This document shows, piece after piece, positions 3,040 through 34,410 of a stretch of 35,838 nucleotides of DNA (within the stretch, counting starts at the first letter, position 1; every line of letters starts with the position of its first letter). The notes beneath the pieces are model-generated. The model was not told the origin of the DNA and ran no database searches. It saw only the letters and a list, made by a program, of their open reading frames with translations. This stretch comes from an uncultured Verrucomicrobia subdivision 3 bacterium (GTDB lineage Bacteria > Verrucomicrobiota > Verrucomicrobiia > Limisphaerales > UBA11358). The translations under genes were made by a program, and so were the position numbers. Where the stretch lies: NCBI GenBank assembly GCA_903875465.1, contig CAIQWB010000068.1:1-35838 (forward strand). Reading direction: 5' to 3'.

Positions 3040-4482
3040 ATGCCCGCACCCAAACCCAATAACCCCAAATCGCCAGCGCCGCCCACCGACGATTTTCGTG
3101 ACCACATCGCCACGGCCGAGGCAGATGGTCGACGGCGGTGGCTGTTTCCACGCCAGGTCAGTGGCAAGTATTACCGCTGGCGGACCTGGTTGAGTTGGTT
3201 GCTGCTGGTGATCATGTTTTCCGGCCCGTTTATCACCATCAACGGCAATCCCCTGCTGCTGATGAACATCCCCGAGCGCAAGTTTGTGGTGCTGGGGCAG
3301 ATTTTCTGGCCCCAGGACATGATCATCTTTGCTTTTGCGATCCTGTTGTTTTTCACGGGCGTGGTAATTTTCACCACGGCTTTTGGGCGGCTGTGGTGCG
3401 GCTGGGCCTGCCCGCAAACGGTCATGATGGAAATGGTGTTTCGCAAAATTGAGTATCTCATCGAAGGTGACGCCCCGGAACAAAAAGCCCTGGCGCGAGC
3501 CCCGTGGACTGGTAAAAAAATCACCAAACGCGCCCTCAAGCACACGATTTTCCTGGCCTTGTCCTTCCTGGTGGGCAACGTGCTGCTGAGTTACATCATC
3601 GGCTGGCGGGAACTGTATCAGATCGTGATCGATCCCCCGGCCCTCCATGTGACCGGGCTGACGTTCATGATTTTATTTTCCCTCCTGTTCTACGGCATTT
3701 TTGCCCGGTTCCGGGAGCAAGCCTGCACGTTCATTTGTCCCTATGGCAGATTTCAATCGGCCTTGCTGGATGAAAACTCCATTGTGGTGGCCTATGACTA
3801 CAAACGCGGGGAAAAGCGGGGGCCTTTGCGGCATGAACAAAAATTTGGCGAACGGCGGTTCGCGGGCTTTGGCGATTGCGTGGCCTGCCATCAGTGCGTG
3901 GCGGTTTGTCCCACGGGCATTGACATCCGAAACGGCACACAGATGGAATGCGTGCATTGCACGGCGTGCATGGATGCGTGTGACCACGTCATGCAGCGGA
4001 CTGGCGCGGCCCCGGGATTGATTCGCTATGCTTCACTGAATGGCATCGAACGGGGAGAGAGCTTGCGCGTGACCCCACGGTTGGTGGGCTATTCAGTGGT
4101 GCTGGTGGTGCTGGCCATCATTCTGGGAGTGCTGTTGTTCAACCGTTCGGACGCCGAGGCCACCCTGCTGCGTGCGCCGGGCTCGCTCTTCCAACAAATG
4201 CCGGATGGCCGCTTTAGTAATTTGTACACCGTGCAACTCATTAATAAAACCTCGCGAGATTTGCCGGTGGAATTGAAGTTGGAAAGTCCCGCGGGATCAC
4301 TGGAAATCATGGGTGCGGGTACGATTCTGGTGCCGGCCCAAAAGTTGTCGGAAAATTCGGTCATCCTTGAGCTCGATACCAATGCCATGCGCTCCGGCAC
4401 CACCCCGGTGGTCATCGGGGTGTATTCCAACGGCAAGAAAATACAAACCTTGAAGACCGCCTTTGTTGGTCCGCGCAATTAA
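3040..4482 (+). CDS. ccoG: CcoG/FixG-type cytochrome c oxidase accessory protein
   Basis: A membrane ferredoxin-like protein needed for cbb3 oxidase assembly; the family is linked to Cu(II) reduction for CuB insertion. From the ATG at 3040 it has 480 residues, with an N-terminal soluble stretch, several membrane helices and two 4Fe-4S motifs: C280xxC283xxC286xxxC290P and C304xxC307xxC310xxxC314. CGWACPQT and CTFICPYGRFQ in the membrane part are also typical of FixG. The C-terminal third is an Ig-like FixG domain after another helix (about residues 350-370). A GTG at 3004 would add 12 residues but lies in a hairpin. It follows ccoP by 45 bases and precedes fixH by 9. Confidence 0.95.
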   Translation: MPAPKPNNPKSPAPPTDDFRDHIATAEADGRRRWLFPRQVSGKYYRWRTWLSWLLLVIMFSGPFITINGNPLLLMNIPERKFVVLGQIFWPQDMIIFAFAILLFFTGVVIFTTAFGRLWCGWACPQTVMMEMVFRKIEYLIEGDAPEQKALARAPWTGKKITKRALKHTIFLALSFLVGNVLLSYIIGWRELYQIVIDPPALHVTGLTFMILFSLLFYGIFARFREQACTFICPYGRFQSALLDENSIVVAYDYKRGEKRGPLRHEQKFGERRFAGFGDCVACHQCVAVCPTGIDIRNGTQMECVHCTACMDACDHVMQRTGAAPGLIRYASLNGIERGESLRVTPRLVGYSVVLVVLAIILGVLLFNRSDAEATLLRAPGSLFQQMPDGRFSNLYTVQLINKTSRDLPVELKLESPAGSLEIMGAGTILVPAQKLSENSVILELDTNAMRSGTTPVVIGVYSNGKKIQTLKTAFVGPRN

Positions 4483-14554: not shown

Positions 14555-14779
14555 CCCAAACTCCGAAATTAAAATGGCTGGGATGTGTCAAGATGTTGGA
14601 GCAGAAACCCTTTGGTAAAATCGCCGGCCTACCCGCATTGGTCTGGTGAGACTGCCTCGGCGCGCAGCGCGCATCCTTAAATGGGCAACTGCTTGGCAGC
14701 GGCTTGGGAAGCCCATGTTCCCAAGCGCTTAGGCCCAAGAGATGGATGCAGACCGGCCGTTTTAATTTCGGAGTTCGGG
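14555..14779 (+). repeat. Family A interspersed repeat, copy 1 (MITE-like, 225 bp)
   Basis: Non-coding element whose left end is CCCAAACTCCGAAATTAAAA (14555-14574). Its right end reads, on the other strand, CCCGAACTCCGAAATTAAAA: one mismatch in 20. It is flanked by a direct repeat ATTAG (14550-14554 and 14780-14784), a likely 5-bp target duplication. It sits in the divergent gap between the ABC operon and a secreted-protein gene. The same sequence, with small changes, recurs at 24190, 33891 and 35507. A recurring minus-strand frame beginning MG.xAWE...PKPLPSSCPF is a by-product of the repeat, not a gene. Confidence 0.9.
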
Positions 14780-24189: not shown

Positions 24190-24416
24190 CCCGCACTCCG
24201 AAATTAAAATGGCTGGGATGTGTCCAGATGTTGGAGCAGAAACCCTTTGGAAAAATCGCCGGCCTACCCGCAGTGGTCTGGTGAGACTGCCGCTGCGCGA
24301 AGCACGCATCCTTAAAAATGGGCAACTGCTTGGCAGCGGCTTGGGAAGCCAATTTTCCCAAGCGTTTATGCCCAAGCGATGGATGCCGACCGGCCGTTTT
24401 AATTTCGGAGTTCGGG
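24190..24416 (+). repeat. Family A interspersed repeat, copy 2 (227 bp)
   Basis: Left end CCCGCACTCCGAAATTAAAA (24190-24209) mirrors the right end ending at 24416 with one mismatch in 20. Flanked by TTTAA on both sides (24185-24189 and 24417-24421), a perfect 5-bp duplication. It contains a 9-bp hairpin, GCTTGGGAA (24339-24347) with TTCCCAAGC (24355-24363). It fills the convergent gap after pfkA and may act as its transcription stop. The 45 bases from 24422 to 24466 hold nothing further. Confidence 0.93.
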
Positions 24417-33890: not shown

Positions 33891-34410
33891 CCCGAACTCC
33901 GAAATTATAATGGCTGGGAGGTTCCTCGCTGTTTTCGGTGGCATGTGAATCGAGCTGACCCTTTAAGCGGTTGGGGAATTGCTGCTTCAATCCCAACGGG
34001 ATTGCGCCCGCTCGCCCAAGGTTGCGCGGCACGAGCTACCTTGGGTATTCCCCCCAACGACCGCCAACCCCAACGGGGTTGTGCCCGTTGGCCGGCCGAG
34101 CCCCATGACACAACCCCGTTGGGGTTGCATAAAAATGCGTCAGCCTCCCCAGGGTAGTCCCGCTGCCGGGACCACCCTGGCCTGGCGGACGGAATCCCGT
34201 GGGGATTCTGCAATCCAGCAGCCAACGGCCCAAGCCGACCCGAATTTCACCGAAAACAGCGAGGAACCGGCTGGGATGTGTCAAGATGTTGGAGCAGAAA
34301 CACTTTGGAAAAATCGCCGGCATACCCGCAGTGGTCTGGTGAGATTTTTCCAAAGCGTTTATGCTCCAAGAGATTGATGCAGACCGGCCGTTTTAATTTC
34401 GGAGTTAGGG
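33891..34410 (+). repeat. Family A interspersed repeat, copy 3, split by a family B element
   Basis: Left end CCCGAACTCCGAAATTATAA (33891-33910) and a right end that ends at 34410 belong to family A. After removing 33920-34268 and one copy of an 8-bp duplication, the element is about 163 bp, about 62 bp shorter than the other copies; the missing part lies between GGTGAGA and TTTTCCAAAGCG. Flanks TTAAA and CTAAG are not identical, so its own duplication has decayed or was never perfect. The right end is 47 bases before a pseudopilin start, so that gene's promoter may include repeat sequence. Confidence 0.9.
33920..34268. mobile_element. Family B palindromic element (349 bp) inserted in family A copy 3
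   Basis: Terminal inverted repeats of 21 bp, perfect (33920-33940 and 34248-34268, starting GGTTCCTCGCTGTTTTCGGT). The 8-bp word GGCTGGGA occurs at 33912-33919 and 34269-34276, a clean target duplication inside family A. Between the ends, four 17-bp palindromes lie symmetrically around position ~34096: 33988-34004, 34065-34081, 34111-34127 and 34192-34208 (7-bp arms, 3-base centre). Two larger hairpins, 34015-34045 and 34149-34180, also mirror each other. No open frame is believable as a protein. It looks like a non-autonomous element carrying REP-like inverted units. Confidence 0.9.

Follow-up and report, generated by a model that had tools for sequence, protein, structure and literature searches.

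Probable recurrent insertion of an ISL3-family miniature element at one site of another mobile repeat in an uncultured Verrucomicrobia bacterium

To our knowledge, few cut-and-paste insertion sequences (IS) show real selectivity for their target. Among the closest described systems are the IS that target repetitive extragenic palindromes (REP), such as ISPsy8, ISPa11, ISPpu9 and ISRm22, which insert at a defined position in a dispersed palindromic repeat (Tobes and Pareja 2006, PMC1525189). The elements named in the portion of that survey available to us belong to the IS3, IS110, IS4, IS256 and IS5 families; the term ISL3 has 0 occurrences in this text. The ISL3 element ISCg1 of Corynebacterium glutamicum has been described at 3,207 sites; its 8-bp target is AT-rich at the centre and follows no distinct consensus (PMC8715038, in excerpt). 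The SMR-A elements of Haloquadratum walsbyi home into other repeats, the PATEs, and occupy 9 of 19 and 12 of 23 copies of one PATE (PMC3119063, in excerpt). MITEPsy1 is a short element that has its inverted ends in common with the autonomous ISPsy2 (PMC3189936, in excerpt). A further paper, PMC10266640, concerns IS256 in the part available to us. No ISL3 element that homes on a repeat was found in the portions of the ISL3, MITE and IS-targeting literature covered here.

The locus described here consists of a small element (family B) inside a copy of another repeat (family A), and the genome holds one IS with the same ends as B. This partner IS is like ISCg1 in its transposase family and its 8-bp target; unlike ISCg1, it is associated with a repeat in which a GC-rich site of 8 bp appears to have been hit repeatedly, and with a dyad outside the duplication. 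B and the REP-targeting IS have in common that the point of insertion within a dispersed palindromic repeat is fixed; here, however, the target is a miniature transposon of 162-227 bp, the motif lies off-centre and the inserts are mostly miniature elements. B also resembles SMR-A as a small element homing into another mobile repeat, but SMR-A makes no duplication and has ends unlike the transposons of those strains, whereas B duplicates 8 bp of its target and an ISL3 partner is present in its genome. In the case of MITEPsy1 the likeness lies in a short element with the inverted ends of an autonomous IS; the available text on MITEPsy1 makes no mention of homing into another MITE, unlike what we see for B. 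Judged from these partial sources, small elements that home into mobile repeats are already known from Haloquadratum, and the apparent recurrent homing of an ISL3 MITE is a new variant.

The window, by which we mean the whole stretch of DNA that was analysed (35,838 nucleotides), contains the following features. Copy 3 of family A, including B, covers positions 33891-34410.

33891..33919, + strand: family A copy 3, left part, from its terminal inverted repeat CCCGAACTCCGAAATT... up to the first GGCTGGGA
33912..33919, + strand: left copy of the 8-bp target duplication, GGCTGGGA, from reading of the sequence
33920..34268, no strand assigned: family B, 349-bp miniature element, non-coding by its ORFs and Pfam search and placed in the ISL3 family by its ends and its IS partner
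33920..33940, + strand: left terminal inverted repeat of B, GGTTCCTCGCTGTTTTCGGTG
33990..34208, no strand assigned: interior of B (about B positions 71-289), palindromic modules similar to repeats found elsewhere in the order, with no match there to the ends of B
34248..34268, - strand: right terminal inverted repeat of B, a perfect match to the left one
34269..34276, + strand: right copy of the 8-bp target duplication, GGCTGGGA
34277..34410, + strand: family A copy 3, right part (short subfamily), with the inverted repeat ...AATTTCGGAGTTAGGG at its end
34282..34291, no strand assigned: CAA-N4-TTG dyad CAAGATGTTG, candidate target-recognition motif, 5 bp past the duplication
14555..14779, + strand: family A copy 1, B-free, 5-bp duplication ATTAG
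24190..24416, + strand: family A copy 2, B-free, 5-bp duplication TTTAA
35507..35730, + strand: family A copy 4, B-free, 5-bp duplication TTTAA

The nested insertion as such is ordinary. The left end of B and the reverse complement of the right one both read GGTTCCTCGCTGTTTTCGGTG over 21 bp without a mismatch. The first-pass annotation had reported an 8-bp duplication and perfect 21-bp inverted ends around a 349-bp block, and its coordinates proved exact. It had also proposed that B was inserted in an older A copy, which is borne out by the excised sequence: after removal of B and one GGCTGGGA, copy 3 agrees with the B-free copy L096, the closest of those compared, at 167 of 173 aligned bases. 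The corresponding values are 165 of 173 for the copy L106 and 155 of 172 for window copy 1. An internal loss of about 62 bp, noted at the same time, is real, and alignment with window copy 1 opens a gap of 63 bp. It is, however, not specific to this copy. The same short form of 162 bp occurs in 5 of 39 B-free copies for which both ends were located, and the shortening is therefore a trait of an A subfamily. Most likely it was inherited before B arrived, i.e. B would have entered an A copy that was already shortened.

B-type ends of 21 bp occur 66 times with ≤3 mismatches in the 5.3-Mb genome (153 contigs), while a reversed control pattern has 0 occurrences in the same genome; chance can hence be ruled out. 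Since the assembly is in fragments and B copies are often found where a contig ends, these counts refer to ends more than to insertions. Many contigs (C14, C19, C49, C62, C67, C77, C104, C137 and C138) start inside or at B, and the copy number and structure of B are probably underestimated.

The genome has a single match to an ISL3 transposase. It is located inside a 1,328-bp element (C1:36484-37811), which has B-type ends (0 mismatches; 2 in the right end) and is bounded on both sides by TTATTAAG, an 8-bp duplication. The transposase of 419 aa scores 268.3 bits with NF033550 (cut-off 180), 200.3 with PF01610 (cut-off 23) and 34.9 with PF13542 (cut-off 27.4); the score for the zinc ribbon PF14690, 24.6, is slightly below the cut-off of 25.5. 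Inverted ends of ISL3 elements start with GGYTCTT or similar, and the ends of this partner (GGTTCCTCGCTGTTTTCGGTG and GGTTCCTCGCTGTTTCCAGTG) and of its close relatives (GGTTCYYCGCTGTTTTCGGTGG) may be of this kind. Relatives of the transposase with 53-80% identity were found at 22 loci in other MAGs, 15 of them labelled as Verrucomicrobia or a group within. Where their ends could be placed, these are mostly similar. A perfect 8-bp repeat is present at 3 of the 22 loci (L190, L193 and L195); at the others there is none or an end is missing. One related ISL3 element (L196, JADLHS010000026.1) has nearly identical CATGYGACTACCCCAGTGATGGTTGCA on both sides and may sit in a repeat too.

Three ORFs (105-132 aa) overlap B; none of them has a Pfam match at E 0.01. 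Since B has the ends of the ISL3 partner and no transposase gene it is, by its sequence, a miniature element, or MITE, of the ISL3 family. When a complete insertion is defined by both ends being on one contig, 12 are available (11 B, 1 IS). The 8-bp duplication is found in 8 of these with ≤1 mismatch, perfect in 5, and is absent from the remaining 4; for B alone, 7 of 11 complete insertions keep it with ≤1 mismatch. A diverged mini form of B with only 121 bp (C108:85403-85523, L132) has a duplication with 1 mismatch.

More than half of the B-type ends (36/66) lie in A, if an end is counted as such when its flank fits A with ≤4 mismatches in 30. The site that is occupied in the window (site 1) alone holds 27 of the 66 ends, 16 as left-side and 11 as right-side junctions; one of the 27, on C139, fits the other end of A slightly better. 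One more end is shifted by 2 bp from site 1 and 8 ends are at a second site of A, 43 bp further in. A search for A-B junctions gave 16 in this genome and none in 58 relatives. Among the left-side junctions at site 1, B has one orientation in 13 cases and the opposite one in 2 cases, and the last is an IS fragment. The piece at site 1 of C78 is the right end of the full IS and was judged by eye to be truncated. Two subtypes of B are present at site 1.

The flanks contain a candidate motif. In A the dyad CAAGATGTTG lies 5 bp past GGCTGGGA, and this spacing is the same as in several contexts outside A. Of 27 ends there, 6 have an exact CAA-N4-TTG that ends 13 nt from the junction, and 8 have it with ≤1 mismatch; 5,000 shuffles gave 4 at most, whichever the offset. 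The 27 ends are what is left of 30 after removal of C62:332 (weak fit to A), C62:5 (a flank of 4 nt) and C138:6481 (a probable chance match). The other 19 ends have at least 2 mismatches to the motif; some of these motif-less ends belong to insertions that have the motif on the opposite, near side, and for some the other flank is unseen.

Because some of the flanks belong to a dispersed repeat, D, the motif test was repeated with thinned flanks and with any gapped 3+3 word allowed to win. Of the 24 flanks, 5 had the word CAA-N3-CTT, again at this offset, compared with a maximum of 3 in 1,000 shuffles. These 24 flanks were chosen by hand: A, D and a repeat E were each thinned to a single motif-side flank, both sides of some insertions were included, and C72:1745, C38:78339, C115:28929, C121, C38:78015, C108:85503 and C105:82051 were left out. 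The word is shared by site 1 of A, by D and E, and by C122 and C149. Several contexts outside A are themselves repeats (D, E) and perhaps distantly related, so that fewer of them are independent than the count suggests.

Repeat D (TTGACGGGGCTTGACGGGATTTTT...TTTTCAATGACTTGC) is dispersed and diverged (L226, L228, L230-L240, L210 and L223; 11 matches were found). In four copies, on C1, C38, C108 and C121, the same position is taken by B or the IS, and others are empty; the assignment of C1 and C121 to D was made by eye. An Rfam scan of 5 D loci gave no match at D. About 1.2 kb from a B/D locus there is a TPP riboswitch (L222:125-253, - strand) with 57 bits and a gathering score of 54.3. Two B insertions, at C105:82051 and C138:139 (L127 and L129), have a similar GTGCAACCACTTGC-like flank, also seen by eye, which is perhaps a third target repeat; this is the repeat referred to as E.

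The motif is not sufficient for insertion, since 13 of the 19 CAA-N4-TTG sites in the window are outside A and empty. Nor is it strictly needed, as 6 of 11 B-bearing A copies have CCA instead of CAA; in the B-free copies CCA occurs in 7 of 38 and TAA in 2 more. The expectation that a perfect dyad is more common in B-bearing A copies was not borne out, because CAA is found in 5 of 11 of these versus 29 of 38 B-free copies, a slight difference in the opposite direction (Fisher p 0.07). The dyad at A site 2 is weaker (GAAACCCTTT). In the related ISL3 elements, none of 28 flank ends has CAA-N4-TTG at ≤1 mismatch (18 of 22 loci, where the ends could be placed). The 8-mer GGCTGGGA alone was also considered as the target and rejected; counted on both strands, the window has 5 such 8-mers outside A, and none of them carries B.

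We propose that B is a trans-mobilised MITE of the ISL3 family with motif-guided insertion and that A serves as its landing pad; we give this reading a probability of roughly three in four. The ISL3 transposase of the 1,328-bp element would recognise the ends of B and mobilise B in trans. The transposase itself, or a host protein that recruits it, would prefer sites with CAA-N4-TTG 5 bp outside the 8-bp target. A could be such a landing pad, since it offers this dyad next to GGCTGGGA. A wider version of this proposal, for which we see about even odds, is that this ISL3 lineage has gained a target selection which reads the dyad, and that its MITEs are largely hyperparasites docked in A, D and E. 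An ISL3 element with such selectivity would be a case of mobile DNA whose harm falls largely on other mobile DNA. Its candidate motif and its dozens of natural insertion ends would in addition provide a direct handle on how a DDE transposase can read DNA outside the cut site.

Other explanations for the pattern fare less well. The near-random insertion of ISCg1, also an ISL3 element (PMC8715038, in excerpt), would be in line with B inserting anywhere and A being simply a safe intergenic place. However, the A copies (122 x about 225 bp) account by arithmetic for about 0.5% of the genome, and the concentration of 27 of 66 ends at one exact position of A refutes random insertion as a full account; we consider it very improbable. 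The same low rating applies to the idea that A-B-A is one element with B as a fixed module of A. The first-pass annotation had named the recurrence of A-B-A as one unit as the result that would speak for this idea. The A-B junction indeed recurs 16 times in the genome, yet the orientations and subtypes of B differ, a piece of the full IS occupies the same site, and the tree of A copies rejects a single clade of B-bearing copies (p-AU 0.0013). There are, furthermore, 122 matches to the A site versus 16 A-B junctions, B copies outside A exist (e.g. C122, C105 and C114), and L096 is a nearly identical A copy without B. Taken together, both orientations, the IS fragment and the absence of a single clade of A or B copies indicate that B is no fixed module of A.

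It is less easy to dismiss, though still unlikely, that one or a few original insertions of B into A were then multiplied by homologous recombination (gene conversion) between A copies, or in A-B-A composites moved by the A transposase. Identity to window copy 1 is 90-95% among the best-scoring A copies, most B copies at site 1 share one orientation, and C46, one of four complete A-B-A composites, keeps the outer 5-bp duplication of A, CTAAA. The B left-end tree, built from 28 rows with a minimum length of 95 bases, has 3 starred branches and a bootstrap that had not settled; it only marginally disfavours a clade of the 14 same-orientation copies at site 1 (p 0.054). The same tree speaks against one clade of all site-1 copies (p 1.8e-8): the 16 copies from site 1 are intermixed with 12 others, and the label changes 9 times, compared with 9.3 after shuffling. 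In the A tree, which is weak (2 starred branches) and contains 49 right halves of A, 11 of them B-bearing, from 75 extracted rows (the rest were judged to be reads from the other end of A), the label for bearing B changes 10 times versus a shuffled mean of 10.1. A spread from few insertions is also hard to reconcile with a single site that holds B in opposite orientations and in two subtypes as well as an IS fragment, and with the motif and its spacing at sites outside A. Repeated insertion of B at site 1 thus seems the best account of the sequences, while some spread within one orientation, via recombination or the own movement of A, may have contributed. Slightly less probable again is a preference for DNA structure, such as an extruded hairpin or a bend of the A palindrome, in place of the dyad sequence. 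A does fold far better than shuffled sequence (z -6.6), and other IS are described to insert at the symmetry axis of palindromic repeats (PMC1525189, in excerpt). The predicted fold of A, however, places the site in the inner part of the terminal stem and not at the hairpin tip, its final two bases falling within a small internal loop, and what the different contexts have in common is a sequence with constant spacing. From the shared motif we infer that it guides insertion, through either the transposase or a host factor.

Family A has inverted ends CCCGAACTCCGAAATTAAAA. The flanks could be read for 39 B-free copies, of which 26 show a perfect 5-bp duplication, 3 one of 4 bp and 10 none; the duplications are often TTTAA, TTGAA or TTAAA. 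With inverted ends and 5-bp duplications A is itself a miniature transposon. The A site has 122 matches with ≤3 mismatches in its own genome, a number that may include some from the similar other end of A. Only 3 of 59 genomes searched contain A, namely its own and two of the same genus; in the latter two the matches listed cover only the end regions of A, with 74-85%. An assignment of A as a MITE of the IS1380 family was rejected, because PF13701 has 0 matches in the genome, as was a DDE_Tnp_1-type origin (3 matches to PF01609, none beside a pair of A ends). A is also no repetitive extragenic palindrome, which would measure 20-40 bp (PMC3733652, in excerpt); its length of 162-227 bp and its 5-bp duplications are at odds with this. 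The window has 0 matches to Rfam families at gathering scores. A-like elements exist at L154-L165 (genomes G033 and G008), and a partner there might identify the family of A.

Sequence resembling B was found in 37 of the 58 other genomes searched, or 38 of 59 when its own is counted, and in 11 of 24 genera. The matches listed cover B positions 39-295, mostly 71-289, and 44 alignments to 19 loci in other genomes span positions 62-294; the outer ends of B are neither among the matches listed nor in these alignments. B looks like a pair of ISL3 ends around a captured piece of a widespread repeat. Its interior (33990-34208) resembles CAACCCCAACGGGGTTG-type palindromic repeats of other genomes (L166-L184), and these palindromic modules may form a repeat class of their own.
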